Part shown: piece after piece, positions 21,223 through 53,847 of the stretch
How positions within the stretch are numbered: the first letter of the stretch is position 1
Layout of the letters: every line of letters starts with the position of its first letter
From: an uncultured Lachnospiraceae bacterium
Lineage (GTDB): Bacteria; Bacillota; Clostridia; Lachnospirales; Lachnospiraceae
DNA length: 55,352 bases
Assembly: GCA_947623805.1 (NCBI GenBank)
Contig: CANQHZ010000010.1
Span: forward strand, 1 to 55,352
Direction of reading: 5' to 3'
The notes under the pieces: generated by a model
Seen by the model: the letters and a program-made list of their open reading frames with translations, nothing else
Database searches by the model: none
What the model was told of the DNA's origin: nothing
Translations under genes and position numbers: made by a program

Positions 21223-22883
21223 ATGCACTTTCTTGATTGTGAACATAAAAGGCTGAGTCCTGTAATTGGACTTTTGACAGGTTTTTTGATTTTTATTATA
21301 ATATACGGCGTTAGGGTTTTGAATCCTGTCTATGTAGATTGGCTGCTTGGAAAGGGCGATTTATCACAGCATTATCTTGGATGGGAATTTTATCGCAGGG
21401 ATGTGTGGAGATTTCCGATTGGAATGACAAACAGACTGGCGTACCCGATAGAGACATCGGTTGTCTTTACGGATTCAATACCGATACTGGCAGTAGTGTT
21501 TAAGATATTTAAGGGAGTATTCCCTCAATATTTTCAATATTTTGGTTTGTGGGGGATTCTGTGTTTTGGTCTGCAAGGGTATTTTGCAGTAAAAATATTT
21601 AATGCATGGGAATTGGATTATCGATGTTCATTTCTGGGAAGTATTTTTATCATAATTTCGCCAGTCATGATAAATAGAATGTTTACCCATACTTCGCTGG
21701 GAGGGCAATGGATTATACTTGCTGCGATTTATTTGTTTTTTGCGTATAATGATGAATGCGAATGCAGCAAAAAGGAAATATTGTACTGGGGAATACTGGG
21801 ATTTTTGATTGCGGGTATACACTTGTATTTTTTTCCGATGTGTTTTTTATTTACCGTGGGAGGTATAGCTAAGAGAATTATCAAATATAAGAAAATAAAA
21901 TTTGAGTATGCATTACCTGTTATAAGTTATACAGTGGGAACGTGCGGTAACTTATATATTTTAGGTGGCTTTGCATCACACGCAATCGGAAGTTCGTTCG
22001 GCCTTGGGGAATTTGGCATTAATTTAAATTCTTTTATAAATCCGGATGGGTTTTCAAGATTTTTACCGAGCTTAGATAATGCTGGGGGGGGGGGTATGAA
22101 GGCTTCGCTTATTTAGGATTAGGTTCCTTATGTATGTGTGCTATATGCATTTTGGCATATTGTTTCAAAGGACGCCTGCGTAATATGTTTACGGCTGATA
22201 ATATTATAATCATATGTATTTGCCTTATAAGTTTGCTAATGGCGACATTTCCAACAGTGACTTTAGGTAATAAAGTTTTAATAGACATTCGTCTTCCGGA
22301 GAAAATCAATAGGCTGTGTTCTGTATTCCGCTCGACAGGAAGATTAATCTGGCCTATGTGGTATTTAATAATGCTGTATAGCATTAAAGGAATAACAATT
22401 TTAAAGTATAGCAAGAAATGCATTGTTAATGTGTGTATATTGGTGATATGCCTCATAATTCAGATAGTGGATATTAGTTCGGCTTTGATAAGTCGTCATG
22501 AAACGTTTGCGAATGAGCAAAAATATGAATATTCGGATGCAGATTTTTGGCAGCGGTTGTCTGAGTACCGGAATTTTAAGTGCGTATGCTTTACTTATCA
22601 GGCTGAGGGGACGTATATGCAAGTTGGGGCATTGGCTTTAAAATATAACTGGATGATGAATTCGTTTTATTTCGCACGTGATATAGAAGGAATACGTCAG
22701 AATCAAGATGTCTTAAGCCATGAGGGGCCCAAGTCGGATTGCATTTATGTTTTTTATCCGAATCAGCAGGAGTTGATGGAGAGTATGGAGGATGTGATTA
22801 GATACTACAATATGGGAGAGTTTATAGTAGGAATAACATGGCTTGATGATGATGGAAATGTAAATGATTTTTCATATGAATAG
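21223..22883 (+). CDS. DUF6311-type membrane protein, split by an 11-G tract (phase-off as read)
   Basis: The first part (21223-22116) encodes membrane segments and stops 22 bases after an 11-G tract at 22084-22094. With one more G (or two fewer), the reading frame runs through the tract into a Tyr-Glu-Gly-Phe-Ala-Tyr-Leu-Gly stretch and on to the TAG at 22883, giving 553 residues with more membrane segments and an outer C-terminal domain. That stretch right after the tract resembles the DUF6311 family, so the restored frame is the real one. The start at 21223 has GGAG at 21211-21214. The likely role is a GT-C type transferase or a glycan-modifying membrane enzyme. As read, the gene makes a truncated protein of 297 residues. 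Confidence 0.85.
22084..22094 (+). repeat. Poly-G tract 1 (G11, then TAT)
   Basis: Eleven G bases are followed by TATGAA inside the DUF6311-type gene. Nine or 12 G would keep the gene open; the 11 present put it out of frame. Confidence 0.95.
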
Positions 22884-22901
22884 GAGGTACATAGAATTAA
22901 A

Positions 22902-24920
22902 ATGACGGGTAATGATAATCATTTTAAAAGCTGGCTTCTGCGTAATTGTCCTATATTTATAATCCTGTTTGTTTTCTCTGCGCTGTCACTTGAAGTGATT
23001 GATTCATGGATTATATGGGATGCGGATGATTACTGCTCAAGCGCCTATTCTACAACCGGAAATGTACAGGGAATAATGAGGCAGATATCAGAAGGAAGCC
23101 TGAAAAGTATCTATGATTTGTATCTTTGCGGACATGCAAGTCTGGGCTGGTCGTTATGGCTGATTTTATTCCAGCTAATCAAAGAAGGAAACGCAATGGT
23201 GCAGATTGCCGATATTACGTTGGCTTTAATTAGCATTTATGCATATTATCAGATATTAAGAAAGATACTTGGGGGGGGGTATGCCTCAGTACTGGCAACA
23301 CTTCCGTATGCTTTTTCACCATTTGTATTAGGAATTGTCGGCGATGTCAATCCTGACAGCGCTGCGATGTATTATATGGTTATTTTTATTGCGTGTTCGC
23401 TGTATAAATATGAATGGCTTGAATTGATTTTCGCGATATGCTTTGTCTTTACTAAAGAGCCGGCTATTATATACTATACTGCTTATATAGCGGCAAAGAT
23501 TGTAGGCGAGTATTTATATAACCATTCGTTTCGGCTGATGGATTTTGTGAAGTGCGCTGTTTGCAATATAAAAAATTATATTTATGCATTACCGATAATA
23601 GGGTGGTTATTGCTTTATCTGTTAAATCCTAATGGCGCGTGGGGAAGTGGCAGCAGCATAGGACATTTTGGAGTTGATGCAGAGGTCTTAGCAATGAAAC
23701 TAAAACAGATATTTTGCCTTAATTTTAACTGGCTGTTTTGGCTGCTGATTATCATTGCGTTAGTTGGATGTATTATTTCAAAAATCAAAATAGAAAAAAA
23801 TATATTAAGAGATTTATTCCCAATCTGTATAATGCTGCTGTCTGTTATAGCATTTAATTGCCTGTATAGTACATTTACGCATGCAAGATACATTGTTCCG
23901 ATGATACCGCTGTTGTATTTGACGGCGACAGCATTGGTGATAAAATTGGGTAATAAAACGATTATTATTTGCAATATATTTATTTCTGTTTTATTATTAA
24001 TTCAAAGCTTTTATGTAATTGATCCGGTAATGGACAAGATTTTTCCATGGACAGATACAGGGAGCGGTAAAATATACAGATTACAAGCAAGAGGAATGGC
24101 TTTAGTGGATGGAATTGTATACAACCGTCAATACGTGTATCTTTCTGAGGCAATATCCATAGTATTGGAAGATTCTGGATATAATGGAGACATGCAGATT
24201 GTACTTCCTGATGAGCCTTTGTGTACCGAGTATGACTTGTTTGGCGGGATTAGTTTATGGGATACTCAAAGAAAGAAAAGAGTAAACTATAACAGCAATA
24301 TAGAATGGTCAGAGCAGGGAGAACTGATAAAGGTCTGTCAAATATCAGGATTAGATCATGCGCTTGAGCGCGTATATAAGGGAAAGTACATATTGTATAT
24401 TGTGCCAGAATGGGCAAACGTTGATACTGACTTTATATTATATGGGGAGACAATAAAAGAAGGCAGGATTGAACATAAGGGTTATAATATACGTTATTGG
24501 GTTATGGATATTGAGGACAGGCTGTGTATGAATAATAAAAGATATGTAATTGTGCCTAAGGGTGACGATACAGGTCTTGCATTATGTACAGATGGTCTAA
24601 CGGTATCAATAGGAGAAGAAGCGCTTGCTAAGACAATAACATTGCAGGCTGTGGAAAATAGATATAAGCTTATTTTTGATGAATATCAGATTGCTGTGAG
24701 GTTTCCGGATGATGTACAGGAAGATAACGGCACAATCTGGGTAGAGCAGCAGTTGGAGGACTCAGAACATCAAGAATGGACTTTGAGAAGTGTTGGGGAC
24801 TACTTTATGATTTGTCATGGAAAATATGCTCAAACATATAATCTGGAGGATTGTTCGGTAAAACTAAATGAGGCAGTTGGCGATGAAAACCAGCTCTGGA
24901 GGTTTGAACCGATAGATTAA
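22902..24920 (+). CDS. GT-C-like membrane protein with C-terminal ricin-type lectin region; carries a 9-G tract (on)
   Basis: This protein has 672 residues. About ten membrane segments occupy residues 12-375, and an outer region follows. The last ~110 residues have two Q-x-W motifs (HQEWTLRS and NQLWRFEP) typical of ricin-B-type carbohydrate-binding trefoils. The first loop has WDADDYCSS, an acidic pair as in GT-C active sites. The 9-G tract at 23271-23279 encodes Gly124-126 and keeps the frame open. AGGAGG lies about 15 bases before the ATG. A transferase with its own lectin would suit a processive or acceptor-binding enzyme, which is inference. Confidence 0.82.
   Translation: MTGNDNHFKSWLLRNCPIFIILFVFSALSLEVIDSWIIWDADDYCSSAYSTTGNVQGIMRQISEGSLKSIYDLYLCGHASLGWSLWLILFQLIKEGNAMVQIADITLALISIYAYYQILRKILGGGYASVLATLPYAFSPFVLGIVGDVNPDSAAMYYMVIFIACSLYKYEWLELIFAICFVFTKEPAIIYYTAYIAAKIVGEYLYNHSFRLMDFVKCAVCNIKNYIYALPIIGWLLLYLLNPNGAWGSGSSIGHFGVDAEVLAMKLKQIFCLNFNWLFWLLIIIALVGCIISKIKIEKNILRDLFPICIMLLSVIAFNCLYSTFTHARYIVPMIPLLYLTATALVIKLGNKTIIICNIFISVLLLIQSFYVIDPVMDKIFPWTDTGSGKIYRLQARGMALVDGIVYNRQYVYLSEAISIVLEDSGYNGDMQIVLPDEPLCTEYDLFGGISLWDTQRKKRVNYNSNIEWSEQGELIKVCQISGLDHALERVYKGKYILYIVPEWANVDTDFILYGETIKEGRIEHKGYNIRYWVMDIEDRLCMNNKRYVIVPKGDDTGLALCTDGLTVSIGEEALAKTITLQAVENRYKLIFDEYQIAVRFPDDVQEDNGTIWVEQQLEDSEHQEWTLRSVGDYFMICHGKYAQTYNLEDCSVKLNEAVGDENQLWRFEPID
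23271..23279 (+). repeat. Poly-G tract 2 (G9, then TAT)
   Basis: Nine G bases are followed by TATGCC inside the lectin-bearing membrane protein gene. The frame is open at this length, and any change not divisible by three would truncate the protein at about residue 130. Confidence 0.95.
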
Positions 24921-24979
24921 TGTGGTTAATCAGGATAAAAAGATGTATAATATTAAAAGAGGGAAAATGCGCTGCAATT

Positions 24980-26155
24980 ATGAAGAAAATTAAAAAGAAG
25001 GATAAAATTACAATATTATCCCTCTCATGGCGTGATATAAAATCACCAAATGCGGGCGGGGCGGAAGTTCACACTCATGAGATGCTGAGCCGTGTGGATA
25101 AAAGCAAATTCAGAATATATCATTTTTCGCCGAGATACGGTAGTTTGCCTAAATCAGAGGTTATGGACGGCGTGATGTATATTAGGGCGGGAAATGTGAT
25201 TTCAGTGATTTTTCATGCTTGGATGTTTTACCTGACAAACCGCAAAAATATTGATTTTGTCATCGATCAGTGCAATACTCATCGCTTTTTTACTCCGTTT
25301 TGGGTGAGGCGTGAAAAAAGGATATTTTATATTCACCAGCTTACAAAGGAAATTTGGGACTATAGCGCTAAGTTTCCACTTAGTAAAATAGGAAAAGCCT
25401 TTGAAGAATGGTTTTTGTGGCTCAATCGCCATGATGCGGTTATAACCGTGTCTGAATCCACTAGAGACGAGCTGGTAGAGCGTGGATACGATAAAGACAG
25501 AATTAAGATTATCCACAATGGGGTGTCATTTGAGCCATGGAAGCCTGAGATGTGGCTGCAAAAAGAGGAACGTCCCACATTTATATACGCGGGGAGATAT
25601 TCGCCTTATAAGGGGATTGATGCCGCAGTTGAAGCTGTTGCCATGCTGAAAGAGGAATTTCCCGACGCAAGACTGTGGATAATAGGGAAAAAAAATCAGG
25701 AATACATGGAAAAAAATTTACTGCCAATATGTAATAAATATAATCTTAAGTGGGAAGACGCAGAAGACGGGCCTGTTGATGGGGATATAATAAGCTGGGG
25801 GTACGTGTCAGAGGAGAAAAAGCTTGAATTATTGAGCCGTTCATGGGCACTGCTGTTTCCGTCGATTAGGGAAGGCTGGGGGATACCTGTCACAGAGGCA
25901 GGGTGTGTCGGAACTCCGAGCATTGTATATGATTCGCCTGGGATACGTGAGGCGATTGACTATGGCAGGGCGGGGTTTTTGTGTAAGAAAAATAGCGCTT
26001 TGGGGCTTTGTGATGAGATGAGAAATGTAATTAATAACAAAACATTATATGGCGACAGACAAAGGTGCGCATACAGATATTCGGCTCAATTTTTGTGGGG
26101 CAGTGCGGGAAATGATTTTGGCGAGTTTATACAGGTATTGATGAAAAATAAATAA
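24980..26155 (+). CDS. GT4-family glycosyltransferase
   Basis: This GT-B fold transferase has 391 residues. The N-terminal block SLSWRDIKSPNAGGAEVHTHE holds the acceptor-side GGAE loop. FIYAGRYSPYKGIDAAVEA opens the donor domain, and SIREGWGIPVTEAGCVGTPS is the E-x7-E donor motif. I start at the ATG at 24980, where the usual N-terminus begins; an in-frame ATG at 24920 directly after the previous stop is the alternative and adds 20 residues. Neither has an ideally spaced binding site. Confidence 0.93.
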   Translation: MKKIKKKDKITILSLSWRDIKSPNAGGAEVHTHEMLSRVDKSKFRIYHFSPRYGSLPKSEVMDGVMYIRAGNVISVIFHAWMFYLTNRKNIDFVIDQCNTHRFFTPFWVRREKRIFYIHQLTKEIWDYSAKFPLSKIGKAFEEWFLWLNRHDAVITVSESTRDELVERGYDKDRIKIIHNGVSFEPWKPEMWLQKEERPTFIYAGRYSPYKGIDAAVEAVAMLKEEFPDARLWIIGKKNQEYMEKNLLPICNKYNLKWEDAEDGPVDGDIISWGYVSEEKKLELLSRSWALLFPSIREGWGIPVTEAGCVGTPSIVYDSPGIREAIDYGRAGFLCKKNSALGLCDEMRNVINNKTLYGDRQRCAYRYSAQFLWGSAGNDFGEFIQVLMKNK

Positions 26156-26182
26156 TAGACATAAGGAGTGGACAAGCATTTA

Positions 26183-26965
26183 ATGAAGAAAGACGATGAA
26201 CTTTCCATTATAATCTATTCATGCTGGAAAAATAGGGATATGTGGGAAATTTTCTCAATATTATTTCATAAATATTGGGAGAATTGCGTTTACAAAGTGA
26301 TTTTAGCCACGGATGAATACCATGATGAAGGCAGATTTAACGTGTTTGATGATGTAGTTGTGTTGGACAGTACATGGGCTAAGATGATAAAGGCAGCGGT
26401 CAAAAAATCAGGCACAAAATATGTTATGCTTTGGATGGATGATTATCTTCTGTGTGATTATGTTGACAACAGTGATATTAAAAAACAGCTTGAACGTGCA
26501 AAAAAATATAACGTTGCCAATATTAGGCTTGTGGAATCGCCAAAATGCAAGGGGCATTATAAAAATCAGAAAAATATTGGATATTATAGATTAGGAGAAC
26601 CTTATTCCCTTGTGACGCAGGTTGGAATTTGGGATACAGCCTTTTTGGATAAAGTGCTTATTGAAAAATGGAGCGCATGGGATTTTGAAAGGATTGGTTC
26701 AATGCAGCTTGGGTGCATAGAGCAGCCGCTTCTTGTTTCGTTGGATTATGTATTTCCATACGAAGAAGGGGTGCGTAAAGGCAAATGGATGGTCGCAGGC
26801 GAAAAATTGTGCAGGAGAAACGGAATAAAGATTGACATTTCAAAACGTCCGATTATGTCAAATTTTGATATGGCAGTGATTTATTTTCAGGGAGCGTTAT
26901 TAGATTGGTGTCCCAAGCTTATTTTAAAAACGCAAAATTTTATCAATAATGTCAGACGGAGGTAG
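26183..26965 (+). CDS. Putative glycosyltransferase of unassigned family
   Basis: This soluble protein has 260 residues. YVMLWMDDYLLCDYVD near residues 82-97 looks like a metal-binding Asp-Asp motif of a GT-A transferase, and a C-terminal membrane-associated helix may be present. AAGGAG at 26163-26168 precedes it; an in-frame GTG at 26168 is too close to that site, so the ATG at 26183 is preferred. It sits between a GT4 and a GT2 gene, which supports a transferase role. The substrate is unknown. Confidence 0.65.
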   Translation: MKKDDELSIIIYSCWKNRDMWEIFSILFHKYWENCVYKVILATDEYHDEGRFNVFDDVVVLDSTWAKMIKAAVKKSGTKYVMLWMDDYLLCDYVDNSDIKKQLERAKKYNVANIRLVESPKCKGHYKNQKNIGYYRLGEPYSLVTQVGIWDTAFLDKVLIEKWSAWDFERIGSMQLGCIEQPLLVSLDYVFPYEEGVRKGKWMVAGEKLCRRNGIKIDISKRPIMSNFDMAVIYFQGALLDWCPKLILKTQNFINNVRRR

Positions 26966-26969
26966 GGCA

Positions 26970-27959: not shown

Positions 27960-27984
27960 GGTGTGGAAAATAGAAAAGAAGTTC

Positions 27985-28014
27985 CAGTTTGAAAAACTGT
28001 ATTTAAAATACAGT
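27985..28014. promoter_or_regulatory. Overlapping small palindromes before the ATPase cassette
   Basis: CAGTTT-gaa-AAACTG at 27985-27999 forms a six-bp stem. Sharing its right arm, ACTGTATTTAAAATACAGT at 27996-28014 is an almost perfect 19-bp palindrome. The two structures are mutually exclusive. They lie 36 bases before the ATPase gene, as an operator or attenuator might. No poly-T tail follows, so it is not a simple terminator. Confidence 0.5.
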
Positions 28015-28049
28015 GGTGGGTAGGAAATAAAGCAGCATGGGAGATTAAA

Positions 28050-29324
28050 ATGAAACTCTATTTAAAAAATATTGGAAAAATAAATGAGGCAAATATAGAA
28101 ATTAGTGGCATTACGGTAATAGGTGGAGAGAATAACACGGGGAAAAGTACAGTTGGCAAGTCATTATTTGTTATATTTAACAGTTTTTATGAAATTCAGA
28201 GGCAAATTCAGCAGGAGAGACTCTCAAGCATAGAAAACACACTGTTGATTCTGTACAGAAATTCTTTTGTTCACGCATCGGGAGAGATAAAGGAACTGAC
28301 TGACTATTCAAAGGAAATTCTATTAAATTCTGAAAAATATATAGAGTCACCAGATTTGCTGAGAGATTATATTGATTCGATTTTTACAGTAAAATCGAGT
28401 CAGCAGAAACCGTTTTATGCAAAAACATATACAGATGATATTGTTGACAGGCTTATAGAAATATTAGCAATTCAGCCGGAGACAATACTTAATTCTGCTA
28501 TTAATAAGAGAATAAATGCTGAATTTGCCGGGCAGGTCATAAATGCGTATTCAGAAGCGGAGGGAATAATTTCCTTGAATGTCGATGGGGAAGAATTGCG
28601 TATAAACGTTTCTGACGGCGCAGTATTATCAAGCGGCTGTGGTTACAGTCTTCATACAGAAGCATTTTATATAGACGATCCGTTTGTGTTAGATGATGTC
28701 GATTTGAGAAGATTCAGACAAAGGATTGCTTACACAGACCATCGAGATCAGCTTATTTATAAGCTGTTGGGAGAAAATGATAATGGAAATGTTATAGATG
28801 AGATAGTGGTAGAAAAAAAAATTGATAAAATATATGAGAAGATATTGTCTGTCTGCGATGGCAAGGTAATCCGCCAGAAAAACTATCGTTTAGGGTATCA
28901 AATGAAGGACTCTGATAGAACGCTGAGTGTAAAAAACATATCTACTGGATTAAAAACATTTGTTATTTTGAAGACGTTGCTGATGAATGGTACAATAGAA
29001 CCCAACGGGACAATTATCCTGGATGAACCGGAGATACATCTTCATCCTGAATGGCAATTGCTGTTTGCTGAGCTGATTGTTTTGCTCAATAAAGAATTTA
29101 AAATAAACATCTTGTTAAACACGCATAGTCCGTATTTTCTGCGTGCAATACAGGTATATGCTGCAAAATATGATGTAAGTGATGTATGTAGGTATTACCT
29201 GTCGGAATTTGTTGATGAAAACGGAGCCCGTATTACAGATGTTACAGACAGCATAGATAAAATATTTTTAAAGCTTTCAAAACCATTGCAAAAGCTTGAG
29301 GACGAGAGGTGCAATATTGATTGA
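28050..29324 (+). CDS. AAA/OLD-type ATPase (AAA_15/AAA_21-like)
   Basis: This protein has 424 residues. Walker A is GGENNTGKS at 25-33. Walker B TIILDEPEIHLHPEWQ has its catalytic Asp-Glu near 325-326 and the H-x-H-P signature of SMC/OLD-like ATPases. LLNTHSPYFLRAI is the switch-histidine region. A middle section of about 200 residues is divergent. No TOPRIM domain follows, so it is not a full OLD nuclease. The start has GGGAG eight to nine bases upstream. The gene overlaps a small partner by eight bases. Such pairs are common among prokaryotic defence systems. It is unrelated to glycan synthesis by sequence. Confidence 0.85.
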   Translation: MKLYLKNIGKINEANIEISGITVIGGENNTGKSTVGKSLFVIFNSFYEIQRQIQQERLSSIENTLLILYRNSFVHASGEIKELTDYSKEILLNSEKYIESPDLLRDYIDSIFTVKSSQQKPFYAKTYTDDIVDRLIEILAIQPETILNSAINKRINAEFAGQVINAYSEAEGIISLNVDGEELRINVSDGAVLSSGCGYSLHTEAFYIDDPFVLDDVDLRRFRQRIAYTDHRDQLIYKLLGENDNGNVIDEIVVEKKIDKIYEKILSVCDGKVIRQKNYRLGYQMKDSDRTLSVKNISTGLKTFVILKTLLMNGTIEPNGTIILDEPEIHLHPEWQLLFAELIVLLNKEFKINILLNTHSPYFLRAIQVYAAKYDVSDVCRYYLSEFVDENGARITDVTDSIDKIFLKLSKPLQKLEDERCNID

Positions 29325-29904
29325 TATTAATAAACATAAATTGCTAAGGGATAATGTTTCAACGTTAAAAGAAACTTCCATAGATACTCATGATAATAAT
29401 AATATTAAATATATGACCGCTTCAGAAAGAGAAGCCATAAATTTTGACAATGTAAAGAAGGAATACATCAAAAATTTGGCTTTAACTGATGAACCAAAAT
29501 CCAATGATGCCCTGTTTATAAATAAAAATGATGATTTGGTTTTTGTGGAATTTAAAAATGGATATATGGATACAGCAAAGAAATATGCGGTGCGGAAAAA
29601 AATATATGACAGTATAATTATTTTGACAGATATTCTAAATGTTGGAATAAGCCAATTAAAAAATGATATGGAATATATTCTGGTATATAACGAAACTGTT
29701 AATAAAGAAGAAGCGGATGTTTTGAAAAAACAAAAATCCTATGTGCAGGCATCAAAGGCATTTGATGATATTGCTAAAAACATAAGCACTATGGCAAAGA
29801 CAGAGTATGTATGTTTTGGAATTAAGATTTTTGAAAATTATTGCTTTCGTAAAGTACATACATACACAGAAGCTGAGTTTGAAGAATATTTGAAAAATAA
29901 TTGA
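29317..29904 (+). CDS. Small partner of the ATPase, PD-(D/E)XK nuclease-like
   Basis: I place the start at TTG 29317, seven bases after GAGAGG, which gives 195 residues and an 8-base overlap with the ATPase gene. Residues about 63-81 read NDALFINKNDDLVFVEFKNG. Asp64, then strand residues and Glu78-x-Lys80, match the D-x(n)-E-x-K pattern of the PD-(D/E)XK nuclease core, and a following helix begins at YAVRKKIYDS. I do not recognise the exact family. Overlap with an AAA/OLD ATPase suggests an effector controlled by that ATPase. The nuclease reading is inference from one motif. Confidence 0.65.
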   Translation: MIDINKHKLLRDNVSTLKETSIDTHDNNNIKYMTASEREAINFDNVKKEYIKNLALTDEPKSNDALFINKNDDLVFVEFKNGYMDTAKKYAVRKKIYDSIIILTDILNVGISQLKNDMEYILVYNETVNKEEADVLKKQKSYVQASKAFDDIAKNISTMAKTEYVCFGIKIFENYCFRKVHTYTEAEFEEYLKNN

Positions 29905-29943
29905 GCGTAAATGGTCAGATTCATGTTTATTGCACAAAAAAGA

Positions 29944-38805: not shown

Positions 38806-40125
38806 ATGGGCAATAAAAATATTGTAGATGCCATATTGGATAATTTAAAAACGGGGGGGGGGTATTACGAGCTTGATGATTATATTATGAACAATACAAA
38901 TGACGTAAAAGCACTGTATTACAGTTGTGTATTGTATGAACAGGCTAAAAAGACAGAAACAGCCAAGATTAAGGATGAAAAGATAAAAGAGCATATTTTA
39001 TTTTGGCAAAAAGAAAAGTGTGAAGAAACACAATATAAAGCATTTATAAATGATATGAAAAAGCTTGATTTCCATTGTCATGGCAAGGGTGTGGAAATAA
39101 CTTTGGGGTGTTCTACTGTATGTAATGCGAAATGCAGTAATTGTACACACGAAACCATGGTTAGAAATGGGGAATTGCTACCAAAAATTTTAGAATTAAA
39201 AGAATTGCGCTATTGGGTGCGAAAGTATAAATTGCTATCGCTAGTGGCAGATATACAAGTTACTAGTATAAGTCCTGTCGGTATGGGAGAGCCATTAACT
39301 AATCCTAATATCATTGAGTTTTATAAGTATATTAAAATCTTTTTTCCAAATGCTGAATTGGGACTGAATACAAATATTAGCTTGTTAAAGGGAAATATGG
39401 CACATGAGATTGCAAAACTCAATATGGGATATATATATCTTAGTCTTTCTTATTTTAATAAGGAGACGTATGAGAGAGAAGTTGGGTTGGATTATGATAA
39501 TACAGTAAAGAACATTTTGGATTTCATAAGAATATGCGAGGAGGAAAATTCAAAAACAAGAATTACAATTCATATATTGAATAATGAATTAAATTCAAAA
39601 AAAGATATTAAAGAATTTATAAAATATTTTCAGCCTTTGTTGCATAAAAAAGACAGGCTTGAAATTAGAAGATATATGCAGATATCTGGAAAAAGCATTA
39701 AAGGAAGAGGAATTAAAAGAAAAAAGTTGCGCCCATGTTATGAATTATGGCAAGTTTTGGCAACAGAGGCAAACGGTAATATTTATCCGTGTTGTTTAGG
39801 ATTATGGAAAAAGTATGATCCGTATTTGTCAATCGGGAATATTACAGATCCGATTCCTGACATTATAAGGAATCTGATGAATATACGTGAAAGGCAGTTT
39901 AACGGTGATTTTAATTCATGTATGGAGTGCGATGTACTGCAACATAATAGAGCATTTTTTCTGCCTATACGTTTTTACAACAAAGAAAAAACGATTAAGG
40001 GAGATATTCAATACATTACGCAAAAAAAATTCTTGTCAGAAATCTTATATATGGCTGAAAAAATCAAATGTTATATTCTGGATTATTCAAAAGAACAGTC
40101 ATATTGGGGAACAAAAGATAAATAA
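38806..40125 (+). CDS. Radical SAM/SPASM protein with a 10-G tract near its start (on)
   Basis: This protein has 439 residues. A cysteine cluster C-NAK-C-SN-C near residues 109-116 is the C-x3-C-x2-C site for the [4Fe-4S] cluster that cleaves SAM. The C-terminal cysteines (RPCYELWQ, YPCCLG and CMECD) look like a SPASM extra-cluster region. Radical SAM/SPASM proteins modify peptides or sugars. The 10-G tract at 38853-38862 encodes Thr-Gly-Gly-Gly at residues 16-19, so slippage would abort translation before the catalytic domain. AGGAGG lies about 10 bases before the ATG. Confidence 0.88.
   Translation: MGNKNIVDAILDNLKTGGGYYELDDYIMNNTNDVKALYYSCVLYEQAKKTETAKIKDEKIKEHILFWQKEKCEETQYKAFINDMKKLDFHCHGKGVEITLGCSTVCNAKCSNCTHETMVRNGELLPKILELKELRYWVRKYKLLSLVADIQVTSISPVGMGEPLTNPNIIEFYKYIKIFFPNAELGLNTNISLLKGNMAHEIAKLNMGYIYLSLSYFNKETYEREVGLDYDNTVKNILDFIRICEEENSKTRITIHILNNELNSKKDIKEFIKYFQPLLHKKDRLEIRRYMQISGKSIKGRGIKRKKLRPCYELWQVLATEANGNIYPCCLGLWKKYDPYLSIGNITDPIPDIIRNLMNIRERQFNGDFNSCMECDVLQHNRAFFLPIRFYNKEKTIKGDIQYITQKKFLSEILYMAEKIKCYILDYSKEQSYWGTKDK
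38853..38862 (+). repeat. Poly-G tract 3 (G10, then TAT)
   Basis: Ten G bases (the first completes an ACG codon) are followed by TATTAC. The frame of the radical SAM gene is open at this length. Confidence 0.95.
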
Positions 40126-41085: not shown

Positions 41086-41086
41086 A

Positions 41087-43047: not shown

Positions 43048-43775
43048 GTGAAAAAGGAAATTTATTTGACATTTGATATGGACTGGGCAATTGATGAGGT
43101 GTTGGAGTATTTTTACGAATTAATAGAGAAATGTCAAGTAGCTGCGACATTAAACGTTACCCACGAGACACCGCTTTTGCAAAAATTTGAATGTTCAAGA
43201 AAAGTGGAGTTGGGAATACATCCAAATTATAATGATTTGCTAAATACTAGGGGGGGGTATGCAGCGACTGCGAGAGCGTATTGGAAAATATGAAAAAGAT
43301 TGTGCCTAGTGCTGTCTGCTGTAGAAGTCATTCCCTTACAACAAGCAGCATTATAGTAAAAAATTATAAAAAGTATGGCATAAAATATGAACTTAATACG
43401 TTGATTCCTGCCTATAAAGGTATGCGGATCCGACCATTTCCTGCGCCTGTAGACGAAGATGTAAAGATACTTCCCTTTATTTATGAAGATGATGTCTATT
43501 TGAACCAAAAAAATAAATTACAGGTTCAGGAATTCCTGTCAAATGAAATAGAGGCACCTAGAATATTTAACTTCCACCCTATCCATTTGTTTCTTAATAG
43601 TGACTGCCAGGAAACTTATGAAAAGGCAAGACCGTATTTTAAGGATTATAAAAGTTTAAGGCAGTATATTAATCAGATAAATTATGGCATAAAAGATTTC
43701 TTTAATGAACTGATTGATGCAGCAAGAAATGCAGGATGGGAGTTTAAGACTATTTCGGGAGGGTGTTGGGAATGA
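43048..43775 (+). CDS. Polysaccharide deacetylase WbmS-like protein, split by an 8-G tract (phase-off as read)
   Basis: The first part (GTG at 43048) opens with EIYLTFDMDWAIDEV, holding the metal-site Asp pair, and stops at 43293 after an 8-G tract. One extra G carries the frame through SDCESVLENM into CCRSHSLTTSS and FNFHPIHLFLNSD, the histidine motifs of the same fold, to the TGA at 43775, giving 242 residues. The two halves make one family-consistent deacetylase. The restored stop overlaps the next gene as ATGA, so the off state may also lower translation of the formyltransferase. Confidence 0.85.
43250..43257 (+). repeat. Poly-G tract 4 (G8, then TAT)
   Basis: Eight G bases are followed by TATGCA inside the WbmS-like gene. 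Nine G would keep the gene open. Confidence 0.95.
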
Positions 43776-44827
43776 GAGTAGCAGTTCTTGGAAGAACCGA
43801 AATGTTGTGGAACAGTATAAAGCTGCTGGAAGAAAGTGAGCATGAGATTGTCTTAATAGGAACTTGCAAGGCGGCGCCAGAGTATTCGGTAGATGAAAAA
43901 CATTTTGAACAGGAGGCAAAGAGGCTTGGCATTCCCTTTTTCAATAATGCAAAGATTAATTCAGATGAGATTATTGCATTGCTTTCAAGAGTTCAAGCGG
44001 ATATTGCCATAAGCATTAATTGGTTGACAGTAATAGGACAAAGAGCAATAGATTGTTTCAGATATGGCATATTAAATGCACATGCCGGTGACTTGCCTAA
44101 ATATAGGGGCAATGCCTGTCCTAACTGGGCAATTATAAATGGTGAAAAGCGCATAGGGATAACGGTTCATTATATGCTTGCTGATGAGATAGATGCAGGC
44201 GATATTCTGGTGAAAGACTATTATTCTTTGAATGATAAAACTACTATTACTGAAATATATCAGTATATGGAGAAAAAGATACCGGAAATGTATATGCAGG
44301 CATTGGATAAGATTGCTCAAGGTGCTTTTCCTACATCTCAAAGCAAGAAGCCGGAAGATATATTAAGATGCTACCCGCGAGTGCCTTCGGACAGTTTTAT
44401 TGATTGGAAAATGTCATGCAATGATATAGATAAATTAGTCAGGGCATCATGCAGTCCCTTTACGGGAGCTTACACTTATTTTAAGGAATATAAAATACGG
44501 ATTTTTGAATGTAGCAAAGAACCTTTTCGGACATCTGTGCTTGTGGTTCCCGGACAGATTGTGATGATTGATAAACTGACAAATCGGATTGGCGTAGCGG
44601 CAAGGGATGGTATTATTATTATATGCAAATCAGAAGTGGAAGGGAGCGAAAAGAAGATTACAGAAATTATTACTTCTGTCAGGGCGAGGATGAATTATAG
44701 TGTTCAGGATAAATTATATGAGTTAGAAAGGCGAATAGAGAAATTGGAGAATATAGGGGGGGGTATAATACATACACTGAATACCTCCATACGGATGTTG
44801 GAGGAAAATGTGCATGAGATTATCTGA
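43772..44827 (+). CDS. Sugar N-formyltransferase-like protein 1, with variable C-terminal tail
   Basis: This protein has 351 residues. It resembles methionyl-tRNA formyltransferase. LNAHAGDLPKYRG contains the catalytic Asn and His, and DEIDAGDIL the conserved Asp. A C-terminal OB-like domain (about 235-300) is present, then a short coiled-coil tail. Genes like this in glycan loci formylate amino sugars. An 8-G tract at 44756-44763 sits in the tail. With 8 G the tail ends at 44827; with 9 it ends at 44817; with 10 it ends right after the tract. The start is within ATGA at 43772-43775. Confidence 0.88.
   Translation: MRVAVLGRTEMLWNSIKLLEESEHEIVLIGTCKAAPEYSVDEKHFEQEAKRLGIPFFNNAKINSDEIIALLSRVQADIAISINWLTVIGQRAIDCFRYGILNAHAGDLPKYRGNACPNWAIINGEKRIGITVHYMLADEIDAGDILVKDYYSLNDKTTITEIYQYMEKKIPEMYMQALDKIAQGAFPTSQSKKPEDILRCYPRVPSDSFIDWKMSCNDIDKLVRASCSPFTGAYTYFKEYKIRIFECSKEPFRTSVLVVPGQIVMIDKLTNRIGVAARDGIIIICKSEVEGSEKKITEIITSVRARMNYSVQDKLYELERRIEKLENIGGGIIHTLNTSIRMLEENVHEII
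44756..44763 (+). repeat. Poly-G tract 5 (G8, then TAT)
   Basis: Eight G bases are followed by TATAAT close to the 3' end of formyltransferase 1. All three frames stop within about 65 bases, so only the C-terminal tail changes. Confidence 0.95.
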
Positions 44828-45704: not shown

Positions 45705-45778
45705 TTTTTAGGAATGCTGATATAGATTGATTGAGATATAAGTGGATTATCTAATTATGAAAGGATTTTTATATAAAT

Positions 45779-46597
45779 ATGAATGTTGTCTTTTTTACAG
45801 CATCAGCTTATGGAGTAAAATGCTTGATGTCAATTTTGAAAATAAAAGAAATAGTTGTGGTTGGCATTGTTACAACGCAGGCAGAGTTTACATTGACATA
45901 TAATGATGGCAAAGATAATAAACGGATGAAAAATGAAGTCCTTTCCGAACTTCACCAGATAAGTGACATAAATGGAATTGAATGTTTTGAAATACAAAGA
46001 ATGAACAGTTCAGACACATATGGTGTATTAAAAAAATGGAAACCTGATTTGATTGTTGTTTCAGGATGGTATCATATGATTGGGGAAACAATCAGAGAAA
46101 TACCAAAGTATGGCGTTGTGGGACTGCATGCATCACTGCTTCCAAAATATAGAGGTGGTGCACCTTTGGTGTGGCAGATGATAAATGGCGAGGATAAAGC
46201 AGGGATTACTTTGTTTTATATAGAAGAAGGCATTGACAGTGGGGATATTATTGCCAGTGCAGAGGAAACTATCGAAGAAACTGATACGATAGCAACGCTG
46301 TACGAGAAGGTGGGGAGTAGAGGAATTGAATTGCTGAAAACATATCTGCCTCTGATAGCATTAGATAAAGCACCGCGTATAAAACAAGATTATTCGGATG
46401 AAAAAGATATATGGCCACAGCGAAAACCCGAAGATGGCTTGATTGATTGGAGTAAAAGCCCAAAAGAGATAGAGCGGTTTGTCCGAGCTCAAACAAAACC
46501 CTATCCAGGTGCATACGCCATAATAGATGATAAGAAAGTTATTATATGGGACTGTACAGTAGAAAATATACAGGGGGGGGGTATAGAAAGGGTTTAG
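45779..46597 (+). CDS. Formyltransferase-like protein 2, with variable C-terminal tail
   Basis: This protein has 272 residues. It has the formyltransferase fold, with HASLLPKYRGGAPLVW and EGIDSGDII, but the place of the catalytic Asn in the N-x-H motif is Gly (GLHASLLP). The C-terminal domain is cut to a few residues by the stop after a 9-G tract. Ten G would extend the protein to about 46677 through a basic tail; eight or 11 would stop at once. Upstream spacing to an AAAGGA site is long, so translation may be weak. Whether it is catalytically active is doubtful. Confidence 0.82.
   Translation: MNVVFFTASAYGVKCLMSILKIKEIVVVGIVTTQAEFTLTYNDGKDNKRMKNEVLSELHQISDINGIECFEIQRMNSSDTYGVLKKWKPDLIVVSGWYHMIGETIREIPKYGVVGLHASLLPKYRGGAPLVWQMINGEDKAGITLFYIEEGIDSGDIIASAEETIEETDTIATLYEKVGSRGIELLKTYLPLIALDKAPRIKQDYSDEKDIWPQRKPEDGLIDWSKSPKEIERFVRAQTKPYPGAYAIIDDKKVIIWDCTVENIQGGGIERV
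46573..46581 (+). repeat. Poly-G tract 6 (G9, then TAT)
   Basis: Nine G bases are followed by TATAGA at the 3' end of formyltransferase 2. The length decides among three C-terminal tails. Confidence 0.95.
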
Positions 46598-46747
46598 TAT
46601 TTTTTTGTGACATCAAAATAAAAAGACATTTGCATAATTCTGCTAAGGAATATAATTTTATGATGACTGTTCCATAGTATTGAATAGATAAAATAAAAAT
46701 GGTAGCGGAACAGAATATGTAATTATGTAATTTGTGGAGATGTCAAA

Positions 46748-48575: not shown

Positions 48576-48758
48576 AAAATATAGATTTTAAAATAATAAG
48601 TACAAATTTTATATTTAATGAAAGACCTAACTTTCCGGATGTGCTGGGGAGAATAAGGTATTGGAAAACGGTGAGAATATCAATAAAAACATCCTATGCT
48701 ATAATGAATTGGTGTTGCAAGGCAAATTATGATTTTGATATTTAACGGGGGTAATAAG

Positions 48759-49726
48759 ATGCTTAGTTATCAAAACTATTTAGAACTTAATGAAGAGTAT
48801 TTTGTTGGCGAGGATGGGATTGTTCGTGAAAAAAAGAATTATTCCAAAGAACAGAATCAGACAAAAGACGCATTTGCATATAAATGGAAACAAAAAAGCT
48901 CATATGAAAGTGAAGCGGTTTATAAAACTGTGAAAGAATGGTTATGGGAAAAGTATTTTGATAATGATGAGGAAATGTTTAAAAGGGTTTTTGCGGATAA
49001 TGCAGTTGTTTTGGATGCAGGTTGTGGGGCAGGGCTGTCGGCGAATGCTCTGTTTGGCAGCCGAATGGATTCCATTAAATATATTGGCGTTGATATTTCG
49101 CGTGCAGTAGATGAAGCAAATAGATTATTTTTAAGCAAAGGTTATAGTAATTATATTTTAGTGCAAGGGGATTTGAATAATATTCCCTTAAAAGAAAAAG
49201 TCGATGTGATTTTTTCGGAAGGTGTATTGCATCATACGGATTCTACCAGAAGTGCGATTATTAATTTGAGCCGATATTTAAACGGGGGGGGGTATTCTGC
49301 TTCTATGTATACGCAAAAAAAGCACCCGTCAGGGAGTTTACGGATGATTATATTAGAGAATATTTTATGAATAAGAGTGATGAGGAAACTTGGAATGAAA
49401 TGATGGCATTGACTAAATTGGGGCAGCAATTAGGCGATATGAACATTACATTAAATGTAGAAGACGATATCCCGTTTTTGGGAATAAAAAAAGGGAGTGT
49501 TGATTTACAGAGATTTTTTTATTGGAATATTTGTAAATGTTTTTATAAATCAGAATACACTCTTGAGGAGATGAACCATATTAATTTTGATTGGTTTAGA
49601 CCAGCTAATTGTCACAGGCAGACTCCTGAAGAAGTATCTCAATGGTGCAAGGAGGCAGGACTGGAAATCGAAAGACTGAATGTGGAAGATGCAGGAATAA
49701 CTGTTATAGCTAAAAAGGAAAGGTAA
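48759..49726 (+). CDS. Class I SAM methyltransferase, split by a 9-G tract (phase-off as read)
   Basis: AVVLDAGCGAGLSANAL near residues 84-100 is the SAM-binding loop, and DVIFSEGVLHHTDS the post-loop motif. As read, the frame passes through a 9-G tract and stops at 49370. With 10 G it continues as FYVYAKKAPVREFTDDYI, the usual continuation in this methyltransferase family, and runs to 49726 for 322 residues with a conserved C-terminal helical part. So the gene is off by one base. I start at the ATG at 48759, seven bases after a GGGGG purine run; the ATG at 48729 lies in the upstream relic frame. Confidence 0.85.
49284..49292 (+). repeat. Poly-G tract 7 (G9, then TAT)
   Basis: Nine G bases are followed by TATTCT inside the methyltransferase gene. 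Ten would restore the full enzyme. Confidence 0.95.
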
Positions 49727-49731
49727 AAAAT

Positions 49732-50595
49732 ATGAATAAGGTACAAAAAGATGTTATAGCACATCAATACTTATATAATAAAATTTATGATGTGCAAATG
49801 AGTGATGAAATATCGGGTAATATATTACCCCAAAAGTTAATTATTAAGCCAGGAAAGTACAAGGTGTTTGATAAAGTATATGATATGAGTAGAGAGGGTT
49901 TGTACCGTTTTATTCAGCCTTTTGATAAGACTGAACAGCGAATTGTGTGTACGGGGGGGGGGTATAAAAAAATCGGGATTTTATTATCTTCAACATCGTG
50001 GATTCTTGCGCATGGTACATTAGATGATAGGATTACAATTGAGAAAGAAAACAGAAAAGCACTTCACAGGAAGCTTATTTGTTCATGCAGTTATGCATCG
50101 TCGTGGGTATCATCGGTATTAAAAAAATTTAATATTAATAGTAGGCTTGTAGTAGGTCTTACGCTTGATAAGTGGAACTCGTATGATAACGGACATACAA
50201 TGTTGGAAATCTTTACTGGTAATAGATGGGTTGTTTATGATGTGACAAATCACATGTTTTTTAAAAATGAGTTGCATTATTTAGATATGTATGAACTGTG
50301 TGACATTGTTTTCAGTCATCGGGATTATGAGATAATTTCCTTGACAGATAGTTTGCAGTATGATGTTAATAGTCCTTGTACTTTATGGACAGAATCAAAA
50401 ATGTCAAATAAAGAATGCCTGAAGAAATGTTACGACAGGCTATTTCAGTGTTCTCTGATTGAGCAAAATAATAAATTTTATTTTTGCGATGTGATGAATA
50501 AAGATAAAGTGGAGTCATATAGCCATAACTATAAGTATATGGAAAAAGATAAATTTATGGAAGAATTTTATTATGTTTCAAATAAAGGAGACTAG
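49732..50595 (+). CDS. Transglutaminase-like protein with a 10-G tract (on)
   Basis: This protein has 287 residues. A cysteine in CSYASSWVSSVL near residue 119, a histidine in GHTMLEIF near 155 and an Asp in VVYDVTNHMFF near 170 form the Cys-His-Asp set of the transglutaminase/peptidase fold. No signal peptide is present, so it acts inside the cell. In glycan clusters such proteins may couple amines to carboxylates or cleave amides, but the substrate is unknown. The 10-G tract at 49953-49962 encodes Thr-Gly-Gly-Gly (residues 74-77) before the catalytic region. Confidence 0.82.
   Translation: MNKVQKDVIAHQYLYNKIYDVQMSDEISGNILPQKLIIKPGKYKVFDKVYDMSREGLYRFIQPFDKTEQRIVCTGGGYKKIGILLSSTSWILAHGTLDDRITIEKENRKALHRKLICSCSYASSWVSSVLKKFNINSRLVVGLTLDKWNSYDNGHTMLEIFTGNRWVVYDVTNHMFFKNELHYLDMYELCDIVFSHRDYEIISLTDSLQYDVNSPCTLWTESKMSNKECLKKCYDRLFQCSLIEQNNKFYFCDVMNKDKVESYSHNYKYMEKDKFMEEFYYVSNKGD
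49953..49962 (+). repeat. Poly-G tract 8 (G10, then TAT)
   Basis: Ten G bases are followed by TATAAA; the first G completes an ACG codon. The transglutaminase-like gene is open at this length. Confidence 0.95.
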
Positions 50596-50598
50596 CAT

Positions 50599-51729
50599 AT
50601 GATACCTATAACGAAACCGTATTTTGATAATGATGAGCTGGATTGTCTGAAAAAATGCTTAGAATCAGGATGGGTTACGCAGGGACCCATGACCGAGAGG
50701 TTTGAAGAATTATTTAAGAAAGAACATGATGCTAAATATGCAGTTTCGGCTTCTTCATGTACAGCAGCGCTTCATTTAGCAATGCTGGCATTAGGGATAA
50801 AAGCAGGTGATGAGGTAATTGTGCCTGCGTTTACATGGATTACATCGGCAAGCTGTGTTGAATATGTCAATGCAGATGTCAAGTTTGTAGATGTAGAAAA
50901 AGAGACGATGAACATTGATCCGTGCAAGATAGAAGCAGCGATTACGTCTAAGACAAAAGCTATTATCGCAGTGCATTTATTCGGGTGTCCGGCAAAGATG
51001 GATGAAATTATGGAAATTGCGCGTAAATATAATTTATATGTGATAGAAGACTGTGCATGTGCGATTGGAACAACATATAAAGGCAAAAAAGTTGGTACAA
51101 TAGGAGATATAGGCTGCTTTTCATTCCATCCGAGGAAAGCAATCACTACAGGTGAGGGTGGAATGTGCTCTACAAATAATGAAGAATTGTATCATAAATT
51201 GCTGCAGTTTAAAAACCATGGATTGAGTACAACAAAAAAAGGTGATGAATATGGCAACCCATTTTATATGGGAATATACGATGAGGTAGGATATAATCTT
51301 CGCTTATCAGATATTCAGGCGGCAGTCGGTATTGCACAATTTAAAAAATTAGACAAGTTGCTAAAAGACAGGAAACGATGTGCGGATTATTATATTACGC
51401 AATTAAAGGCGGAGGACAAACTATTGTTACCAATTGCACTGGAAGGATTTGGGCATACTTATCAGTCTTTTGTTGTATTATTAAAAAATGGTAGCAGGGA
51501 ATTGAGAAATAAGATAATGCTTGCAATGAAAGAACAGGAGATTCAGACTAGACCAGGAACAATAGCAATTACAAGAACCGAATTCAATAAGAATAAATAT
51601 GGATTAAAATGTGGCATGTTTCCTGTTGCAGAGTTCTGCGAGGACGCATCAATAACATTACCGATATACCCCAACATGTCAAATACTGATATGGACAAAG
51701 TAATCAGGGCGTTGGAAGTTATATTTTAA
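50599..51729 (+). CDS. DegT/DnrJ/EryC1 sugar aminotransferase, second
   Basis: This PLP enzyme has 376 residues. ITKPYFDNDELDCLKKCLESG is the typical N-terminus, and ASSCTAALHLAMLALG, VIEDCACAIGTTY and FSFHPRKAITTGEGGM with the Schiff-base Lys follow. It is close to the PglE/PseC/ArnB type that aminates 4-keto sugars. The dTDP-4-keto-6-deoxyglucose made by rfbB is a possible substrate, and the resulting 4-amino sugar would suit the formyl- and acyltransferases nearby. That link is inference. Confidence 0.95.
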   Translation: MIPITKPYFDNDELDCLKKCLESGWVTQGPMTERFEELFKKEHDAKYAVSASSCTAALHLAMLALGIKAGDEVIVPAFTWITSASCVEYVNADVKFVDVEKETMNIDPCKIEAAITSKTKAIIAVHLFGCPAKMDEIMEIARKYNLYVIEDCACAIGTTYKGKKVGTIGDIGCFSFHPRKAITTGEGGMCSTNNEELYHKLLQFKNHGLSTTKKGDEYGNPFYMGIYDEVGYNLRLSDIQAAVGIAQFKKLDKLLKDRKRCADYYITQLKAEDKLLLPIALEGFGHTYQSFVVLLKNGSRELRNKIMLAMKEQEIQTRPGTIAITRTEFNKNKYGLKCGMFPVAEFCEDASITLPIYPNMSNTDMDKVIRALEVIF

Positions 51730-51743
51730 AATGGAAGTTAATA

Positions 51744-53051
51744 ATGGGTGAAAACATGAAAGAGCATAGAATTTTTTTGGGGGCGCAGGAAATAGCAGGT
51801 ATGATGAAACGTGTTAATAATGCGTTTAAAGATATGGGGTATAAGTGTGACTATTATTGTCTAAATGAATATGTCTTTGATAAAAATGGGTATGAACCGC
51901 TTCCACAGATGAAGAAATACAGACGGCATATGGAAAGAATCCAAAATACAAACAGCTTATTAAAAAAGGCTTTGCTGTATATTGTACAGATGTTTGATAT
52001 ACTTAACATTTTTGTATATACATTATTTGTCTATACGGATTATATTTATATATTTGGTAATGGTTTGTTTTATTTTAATCCATATTTGCGGCATATTCAA
52101 GAGTTGGAATTTTATATTTTAAAGCTTTGCCACAAAAATATGATTATGTGGCTTTGTGGATCTGACTCACGTCCGTCATATTGTGATGTAAACACTTATA
52201 AAACTATCAATGCGATGTATAGGGATGCAAGGAGAAGAGCAAAAAATATTAGGATGCTGGAAAAATATATGCTTTTGATAGATAATCCAGCTTCATCACA
52301 TTTTCATACCAAACCATATATCATATATAATTGTATAGGAATTATTGCTGATGAAAACGAAAAGGTGAAGGCGAATTTGCAGAATGATGGAAAAATACGG
52401 ATATTGCATGCGCTTTCTCATCTAAAGGGTAAAGGTACGGCTGAAATACAGAAAGTTTTGCAAGAACTTAAGGAGGAAGGTTATAAATTTGAATATATTG
52501 CAGTACATGGGGTTTCACATAGAGAAGTGCTTAAACAAATGGCACAGGCTGATATTGTTATAGATCAGTTGTATTCCGATACGCCAATGGCAGGTTTTGC
52601 TACAGAGGCAGCAATTAATGGTATACCAGTTATTGTGGGAGGATATTATGCGGATTATTATCATAAAGTAAAGAGTAATCCAGATATTCCAACTTTATAT
52701 TGCGCACCAGATAAGTTGAAAGAGAATATTATTTTTTTGATTAACAATGAAAACATAAGAACGGAAATTAGCGAAAAAGAAAAAAATTATATAGAAAGTA
52801 ATTGCACGCCTGAAAAAGTCGCAAAAAAACTGATAAAATTGTTAGAAAAAGATATACCAACAGAATGGTATTTTAATCCATTTGATAATGATTATCCTTT
52901 TGGGGGAGGGATAAAAAAAGAAGAAATGATTGATAATGTTACTAGGCTTATTGATAAATATGGAGAGAAAGCTCTTTGTTTGGATAAAAATACAATATTA
53001 TTTGAAAAATATATGGATTTATACAGAGGTAATAAAAGGCATGTTAGGTAA
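51744..53051 (+). CDS. Putative GT-B fold glycosyltransferase
   Basis: This protein has 435 residues. The N-terminal half is divergent, with an aromatic hydrophobic stretch near residues 75-110. IRILHALSHLKGKGTAEIQKVL near 215 opens a donor domain, and IDQLYSDTPMAGFATEAAINGIPV near 272-295 resembles the donor-binding loop. A late PFGGGIKKEE is encoded with an A-interrupted G run (GGGGGAGGG). An ATG at 51756 is a possible alternative start. It overlaps the following deacetylase by 11 bases. Confidence 0.72.
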   Translation: MGENMKEHRIFLGAQEIAGMMKRVNNAFKDMGYKCDYYCLNEYVFDKNGYEPLPQMKKYRRHMERIQNTNSLLKKALLYIVQMFDILNIFVYTLFVYTDYIYIFGNGLFYFNPYLRHIQELEFYILKLCHKNMIMWLCGSDSRPSYCDVNTYKTINAMYRDARRRAKNIRMLEKYMLLIDNPASSHFHTKPYIIYNCIGIIADENEKVKANLQNDGKIRILHALSHLKGKGTAEIQKVLQELKEEGYKFEYIAVHGVSHREVLKQMAQADIVIDQLYSDTPMAGFATEAAINGIPVIVGGYYADYYHKVKSNPDIPTLYCAPDKLKENIIFLINNENIRTEISEKEKNYIESNCTPEKVAKKLIKLLEKDIPTEWYFNPFDNDYPFGGGIKKEEMIDNVTRLIDKYGEKALCLDKNTILFEKYMDLYRGNKRHVR

Positions 53052-53847
53052 ACAATATTATTTTGATGATTTCACAGAAGAAAATTATAAGAGATTGATT
53101 GAGAAACTTACTACTAATTATAAAATAATAGAATTTTCATATGAGGATATTTTGAAGAAAGATAAAGTAGTGCTGTTACGGCATGATGTAGATGCCTCAT
53201 TGAACAGGGCGTATCGTTTAGCCCAAATTGAATACGGGGGGGGGGTAAAAACAACCTACTTCATACATTTACATAATATGTTTTATTCAATTTTGGAACA
53301 AAACCAATTTATGATGATAAAAAATATTATCCGCATGGGGCATAAAATTGGTTTGCATTTTGATTTTGATTTTTATAAACAGACAAGAGATATCGGGTCT
53401 GGATATGCATTGGAGGAATATGCGAAACAAGAGAGAAAAATGCTGGAAAGTTTGTTTGAAGTCAGTATAGATGTGGTTTCTTTTCATAATCCAGAAGCAG
53501 CAGGAGTACTAAATTTGCAAAATGAATATTATGCAGGAATGGTAAACGCATATTCTAGAGTTATTAGTGAATGCTTTAAATATTGTTCGGATTCCAATGG
53601 TTACTGGAGATTTGAACGATTAGAGGATGTTATTGATTATGGGTATGATAAGCTGCATATTTTGCTACATCCTGAATGGTGGACGCCGGATTTGATGAGT
53701 CCTTATGATAGAATTAGAAGATGTGTAATCGGAAGAACTGACAACATCTTGAAATCATATGATAGACTTATAAGTAGTTCTGGCAGGGAAAATGTAGGTT
53801 ATAATGAAGAAAAGGTTGATCTGTCGGGTGAGGTTGGAAATAGATAA
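53041..53847 (+). CDS. Polysaccharide deacetylase-like protein with a 10-G tract (on)
   Basis: This protein has 268 residues. [13 protein letters not shown] near residue 43 holds the Asp pair of NodB-like enzymes, [14 protein letters not shown] follows the tract, and [10 protein letters not shown] and [10 protein letters not shown] carry histidines. A HPEWWTPD block closes the domain. The ATG at 53041 lies after AGAGG and overlaps the previous gene. The 10-G tract encodes Gly66-68 plus part of Val69 and keeps the frame open. The likely reaction is removal of N-acetyl groups from a sugar, possibly making the free amine that acyl- or formyltransferases use. Confidence 0.87.
53236..53245 (+). 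repeat. Poly-G tract 9 (G10, then TAAAA)
   Basis: Ten G bases are followed by TAAAAA, the only tract of the nine without a full TAT. The frame is open at this length. Confidence 0.95.

Follow-up and report, generated by a model that had tools for sequence, protein, structure and literature searches.

Poly-G Tracts with a Common ATAC/TAT Flank as Probable Phase-Variation Loci in a Lachnospiraceae Genome

The genome of an uncultured Lachnospiraceae bacterium (assembly GCA_947623805.1) is rich in poly-G tracts, many of which share a flanking signature, ATAC-N0-2-G8-11-TAT (hereafter the box). The tracts were first seen in a stretch of 55,352 nt from contig CANQHZ010000010.1, called the window here, whose positions serve as tract coordinates. 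An earlier note on the window took nine tracts in nine genes for a candidate multi-locus phase-variation system. Length differences between orthologues, frame states, gene context and tracts in promoter spacers support this proposal, which has to be widened: the tracts are genome-wide and multi-species, include promoters and carry the flank signature. Most probably (roughly 0.85), judged from sequence, they are slippage contingency loci, that is, poly-G phase variation. The box, which is sharp and found in coding and promoter tracts alike, is new beyond the earlier note.

Poly-G Tracts in the Window

The nine tracts, whose starts had been given exactly, are far beyond chance. Each sits in its own gene with G on the coding strand, and TA follows directly in all nine:

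22084..22094, + strand: G11, out of frame; DUF6311 gene 21157-22883, 315 codons before the tract and 262 after
23271..23279, + strand: G9, in frame; 672-aa gene 22902-24920; flank ATACTT-G9-TAT
38853..38862, + strand: G10, in frame; starts at codon 16 of a radical SAM/SPASM gene 38806-40125
43250..43257, + strand: G8, out of frame; splits a WbmS-like polysaccharide deacetylase 43048-43775; flank ATACTA-G8-TAT
44756..44763, + strand: G8, near the 3′ end of formyltransferase 43763-44827, whose C-terminal tail it sets
46573..46581, + strand: G9, near the 3′ end of a second formyltransferase 45779-46597; flank ATACA-G9-TATA
49284..49292, + strand: G9, methyltransferase 48729-49370; probably out of frame with a 144-codon frame ending at 49726
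49953..49962, + strand: G10, in frame; transglutaminase-like gene 49732-50595; flank GTAC-G10-TATA
53236..53245, + strand: G10, in frame; gene 52930-53847 without Pfam match; flank ATAC-G10-TAA

The genes had been sorted into four open, three broken and two with altered tails. The four open ones (23271, 38853, 49953, and 53236) are indeed in frame, and 22084 and 43250 are out of frame, as 49284 probably is; the tract at 46573 affects somewhat more than a tail, the match to the C-terminal domain of this formyltransferase being cut at 52 of 100. The deacetylase matches profile positions 1–64 before its tract and 72–186 after it, while in the methyltransferase the profile match stops at position 109 of 145 and the downstream piece has no Pfam match. 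The 672-aa gene has no Pfam match either, and its lone NCBIfam match, to a cell-surface glycopolymer family, is far below the cut-off (27 bits vs. 150). The radical SAM gene finds only distant matches in the genus (24–32% identity). Besides the nine tracts of at least eight G, the window holds two G7 runs (19753 and 37666); C runs of six or more were not found on its + strand. The figure of up to 128 combinations attached to seven on/off loci is arithmetic only.

A Separate Class of G Runs in the Genome

In the whole genome (3,955,491 bases in 229 contigs), there are 59 tracts of at least eight G, 58 with a readable left base and one at a contig start; 8 are G8, 28 are G9, 20 are G10, and 3 are G11. 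In 322 kb chosen around the tracts and counted on both strands, where only the shape of the curve is meaningful, the numbers fall about fivefold per added base, from 3226 (G3) through 660 (G4), 113 (G5), and 23 (G6) to 4 (G7), and then rebound at G9 and G10 (8, 28, 20, and 3 for G8 to G11). Extension of the fivefold decay predicts about one run of eight or more, compared with the 59 counted. Because of this minimum at G7 and the rise after it, the long tracts are a separate class. As in contingency loci, these homopolymers lie beyond chance in coding regions or promoters. Among the 43 tracts of the genome followed by TA (TA-type tracts), 39 carry their G run on the strand that has the longer open frames.

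The Flanking Box

TA follows 43 of the 57 tracts with a readable right side, compared with 8.0% of 4,022 G3–6 runs. On the left, TAC is found within two bases of 25 out of 42 TA-type tracts with enough flank and of none of the 14 others; in four relatives the corresponding counts are 24/45 and 5/27. These five genomes, the four relatives after filtering at both ends of the search pattern, are the nearly unbiased sets for TA, most loci of the other relatives having been picked by G8TA or by the box. Outside ATAC and TAT, the flanks are merely A/T-rich. Coding copies of the box stand in every codon phase, and promoters have it too.

The filler between TAC and the run is tied to run length. In the genome under study, tracts without filler are G10 (10/10), those with one filler base are G9 (9/10), and those with two are G8 in two cases and G9 in three; 21 of 25 tracts have a distance of exactly 10 from TAC to TA, whether their genes are in frame or out of frame. 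A looser form of the same trend is seen in 80 other tracts of the genus, with distance 10 in 36, 11 in 29, and other values in 15. A permutation test gives p = 5e-5 for either set.

Several explanations of the flanks were tried and rejected. The 24 clear coding TA-type tracts are spread over the three codon phases (7, 10, and 7), and other such tracts stand in promoters, which speaks against an amino-acid cause. In 96 TAC–TA tracts, the left and right flanks show no covariation beyond the consensus and no excess pairing, as a hairpin or inverted repeat would. Growth from short runs with the same flanks finds no precursor, since none of 140 G5–7 runs in the 322 kb around the tracts carries both. 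Insertion of a whole 17-bp unit does not fit a rhamnosidase gene, where the tract occupies an existing Y-x-G loop of similar length (one site only). A search for a fixed 17-mer with three mismatches gave 37 vs. 26, 12 vs. 11, and 28 vs. 22 matches (forward vs. reversed) in G000, G026, and G028, and is little informative because a bare G run suffices for a match. Most simply, the flanks are a DNA-level context which favors or stabilizes G tracts in Lachnospiraceae. A bolder and tentative idea, which may well be wrong, is that the box is a unit recognized by a putative factor deciding on formation or slippage of the G tract, so that in this family the sites of phase variation would be specified and would not depend on the polymerase alone.

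Tracts in Promoter Spacers

A few tracts of the same type sit in promoter spacers, with the arrangement TTGACA-N-TAC-G10-TATAAT. A search of 38 genus genomes for TTGACA-N4-14-G7-N0-6-TAT found 26 matches, spread over 10 of them, compared with two in the reversed control; one site of G026 is counted three times, and the matches of G024 and G034 are unlike the promoter type. Many matches extend to TATAAT, and several precede LysM proteins or other proteins whose starts resemble signal peptides. Spacers of 19 are frequent, compared with the usual 17 between −35 and −10 elements. In similar promoters of G028 and G019 (L200 and L201), an A breaks up the tract, at a different position in each (G7AG3 and GAG9); these are perhaps locked switches.

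Length Variation between Orthologues

Fixed tract lengths across related genomes had been named as the observation that would speak against phase variation; the lengths are in fact found to vary between species. Comparison of 208 tracts among loci assigned to 17 genus genomes (a few of these tracts come from an assembly gap in L117), with inspection of the gaps around six locus pairs, yields nine orthologous sites, six of which differ in length. In one case, a G9 tract of the genome (L072) corresponds to G10 in G026 (L227): the 2,301 aligned bp contain 22 substitutions and one indel, which is located in the tract. L086 (G9) and L241 of G019 (G11) are 97.9% identical over 2,301 bp with one gap, at the tract, and one net base difference. 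At both of two tract sites shared by G002 (L145) and G022 (L274) the lengths differ by a single base, and either aligned block has one further single-base indel. The other two are promoter sites: a tract is G9 in G003 and G10 in G005, and in a promoter common to L090, G019, G028, and G026, three are alike and one is longer by one base beside the tract. Equal lengths are found at two sites of L100/G028 and at one of G022/G060.

Three more sites were found by eye or by protein match. One differs, G9 in G002 and G10 in G021 in one protein family (64–68% identity), and two LysM promoters are equal in spacing (L085/L214, and L073/L209, where G is replaced by A). A further LysM pair, L085 (G10) and L210 of G026 (G11), was excluded as a doubtful orthologue (58% identity). 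In total, seven of 12 sites differ and, in these between-species comparisons, tract length varies faster than the surrounding DNA.

Frame States and Host Genes

A coding tract was called clear when at least 50 codons lie on each side and the best frame is at least twice the next. By this rule, 24 TA-type tracts are clear, 11 in frame and 13 out of frame. The best frame after the 13 out-of-frame tracts runs for 57–963 codons, for example 963 (the rhamnosidase), 400, 334, and 295; since 50 codons are imposed by the rule, only the long frames count against decay. The rhamnosidase is broken at its own tract, while 14 full-length orthologues in the genus (48–55% identity) have no internal stop and show a conserved Y-x-G loop instead of the tract (seen in protein for 14, one cut short, and in DNA for eight). 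As far as the sequence tells, tract length alters either the reading frame or the promoter spacing.

Outside the window, 30 pieces from 26 of the 50 tracts were scanned with Pfam; 24 match and six do not. Methyltransferases, including the TylF and FkbM types, and sulfatase-fold enzymes are the commonest, followed by a glycosyltransferase, a Branch-type transferase, a hexapeptide protein, WcbI, a PIG-L deacetylase, an AMP-binding enzyme, a LysM protein, DUF1796, DUF7402, and the rhamnosidase. For two other hosts, a citrate-lyase-ligase-like protein and a DUF4956 protein, a surface role is not obvious. The scanned hosts thus appear from their domains to be mainly glycan-decorating enzymes and surface proteins. 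Two G10 tracts of L098 (9635 and 10396) are about 760 bp apart, and the second lies within the DUF1796 frame that starts at the first.

Spread in the Genus and the Family

The box is enriched in the genus and scattered through the family. Over 36 genus genomes, G8TA is found 226 times compared with 21 for the reversed ATG8; over 24 other genomes the counts are 56 and 14, mostly from G052, G039, and G045. For ATAC-N0-2-G7-N0-4-TAT, 19 of 38 genus genomes give 82 matches vs. three reversed, the variable gap doubling some of the 82; outside the genus there are five matches in five of 78 genomes vs. 11 reversed. With a stricter G8 box, a search covering 396 family genomes gave 33 matches (one doubled) vs. 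one reversed outside the genus, in 20 of 394 genomes, which rules out a restriction to the genus. The same box is found in genomes with contigs of 3.5–3.8 Mb. Viral contigs have four exact matches vs. none reversed, none of them in a long open frame.

From the family genomes outside the genus, 22 box sites in 20 stretches were taken. The ten protein pieces scanned include two S-layer-homology proteins, a leucine-rich-repeat protein, another repeat protein, an MBOAT acyltransferase, a TylF methyltransferase, and two-component genes, with one unmatched; TTGACT-N-TAC-N-G-TATAAT stands at four sites in two genera. In G227 (L281–L284), five large frames, mostly of surface type (SLH, LysM, Big_2, Flg_new, or no match), have ATACA-G9/10-TAT after 37–202 codons, with the best frame in at one and out at four. 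The box also stands between a response-regulator receiver and an AraC-type helix-turn-helix, and, in a histidine kinase, inside the ATPase domain (L285 and L286, from G227 and G184), which may possibly be phase-variable regulators.

G052, a member of the order from another family, has 29 G8TA sites and no match to the box; the box is therefore not a general property of G tracts. Many of its tracts (L127–L144) are G10–12 followed by TAA, TAG, TAC, or TAT without an ATAC flank, apparently an independent poly-G system.

Slippage and Its Alternatives

If the tracts are contingency loci, slippage in G8–12 would add or remove one or two G. In a coding tract, the change would bring the frame behind the tract into or out of register; a promoter tract would alter the distance between −35 and −10. 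Glycan-decorating enzymes by the dozen (formyl-, methyl-, acyl-, and glycosyltransferases, sulfatase-fold enzymes, and deacetylases) and surface proteins would then switch independently within a population, and each cell would have its own surface. The near-constant distance between TAC and TA may reflect slippage that tends toward roughly ten bases, or a factor reading the box.

Four points weigh against slippage. MutS1 is present in the genome and over the cut-off in 34 of 38 genus genomes; the tracts are therefore not due to lack of MutS, and switching, if any, takes place in a MutS-bearing cell. The assembly is a draft of 229 contigs, in which single tract lengths may be off. Five of the 12 orthologous sites are equal in length. 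Finally, a TAC–TA distance of 10 in 21/25 tracts is tighter than a free random walk suggests, and its constancy in both frame states is the observation that is hardest to explain. A second MutS-family match of about 145–167 bits, which we take to be MutS2-like, is found in most genus genomes; it is not listed for G000, G019, and G004, where contigs may be missing.

This same spacing, kept regardless of frame state, would fit fixed-length sites for programmed transcriptional or ribosomal frameshifting, all genes being partly expressed whatever the length in DNA. Such sites are unlikely, since the same core stands in promoter spacers upstream of −10, outside the expected transcript, and since lengths differ between orthologues. 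Alternatively, the box would be no mutation hot spot and instead the operator of a putative dimeric regulator with half-sites ATAC and GTAT, MerR-like in promoters. The half-sites are sharp and mutual reverse complements, their spacing is about one helical turn, and the promoter spacers, often of 19, would suit it; against this, the TA-type tracts lie mostly inside genes and in one orientation (39/43), lengths vary by single bases, and in the DNA sampled around the tracts ATAC-N9-GTAT is no commoner than background when it lacks a G run, which also rejects a general operator of this form. A MerR-type operator has its dyad centered in a 19–20 bp spacer; here, by inspection, it abuts the −10 end, and coding DNA has the box as well. 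An operator is accordingly improbable.

Homopolymer artefacts of assembly or sequencing are suggested by the draft state, by a report that Illumina reads can fail in G tracts (PMC9187656), and by three of the 59 tracts being the first bases of a contig, a coincidence that mixed lengths or read failure could both produce and that is given no weight. They are very improbable as a general cause, given the common flanks, the long frames on both sides and the same box in genomes with megabase contigs; lengths may err by one. Decaying pseudogenes with chance G runs would fit the 13 of 24 out-of-frame tracts, and can be practically dismissed on the frames of up to 963 codons after such tracts and on the discrete class of runs with common flanks.

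Other Features of the Window

The claim that nucleotide-sugar and export genes are devoid of tracts holds for those genes in the window. They and neighboring genes without tracts of at least eight G are as follows:

3174..9453, + strand: tract-free stretch with sugar-nucleotide genes, ABC-2/Wzt export genes, and GH25
3174-4250, + strand: NAD-dependent sugar dehydratase, in this stretch
4300-5181, + strand: nucleotidyltransferase, in this stretch
5159-6460, + strand: GH25, in this stretch
6501-7064, + strand: dTDP-sugar 3,5-epimerase, in this stretch
7037-8062, + strand: ABC-2 transporter, in this stretch
8146-9453, + strand: Wzt-type ATPase, in this stretch
11625..17758, + strand: three large GT2 glycosyltransferase genes

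Midway through the glycan locus (28050-29904), an AAA_15/AAA_21 ATPase is accompanied by a 202-aa open reading frame without match. The ATPase has matches among many defence ATPases, the best being PD-T4-4_A (E 3e-24), with AriA and PtuA among the others; the two genes are possibly a phage-defence pair.

Comparison with Known Systems and Implications

Gram-negative pathogens provide the best-known cases of multi-locus poly-G phase variation; one of them, Campylobacter, has a background without MutS. In Neisseria, promoter switches such as that of porA have a homopolymer between −35 and −10. The promoter tracts here are alike in this position, but they run straight into the −10 element, have TAC before them, and share the core of the coding tracts.

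Campylobacter jejuni NCTC11168 has 29 poly-G/C contingency loci with tracts of at least seven (PMC4965091). The likeness lies in dozens of G tracts, many in surface-structure genes, and in frame switching, which is predicted for the present tracts; here too the G tracts are many and, in the nine window genes and the 26 of 50 other tracts scanned, largely in surface-structure genes. The differences are the Gram-positive Lachnospiraceae host, the 59 tracts of at least eight, the presence of MutS1, and the promoter-spacer tracts. The common ATAC/TAT flank is noted for the present tracts; Campylobacter flanks were left out of the comparison. The pilus switch of Bifidobacterium breve, likewise a Gram-positive gut commensal, has a G tract in coding sequence and mixed lengths in the population (PMC9187656). 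Its G tracts belong to one or two pilus clusters, whereas here there are dozens, many in glycan genes, with promoters and flanks in addition. A literature search of limited coverage found no account of G-tract phase variation in Lachnospiraceae.

If the tracts do switch, a system of 59 tracts with two modes, frame and promoter, would allow a mosaic of surface antigens and phage receptors inside one strain of these gut bacteria, and consensus genomes would mis-call many switchable genes as broken. Furthermore, the flank box makes the mutability of homopolymers testable, and would offer a simple motif to find switchable genes in Lachnospiraceae.

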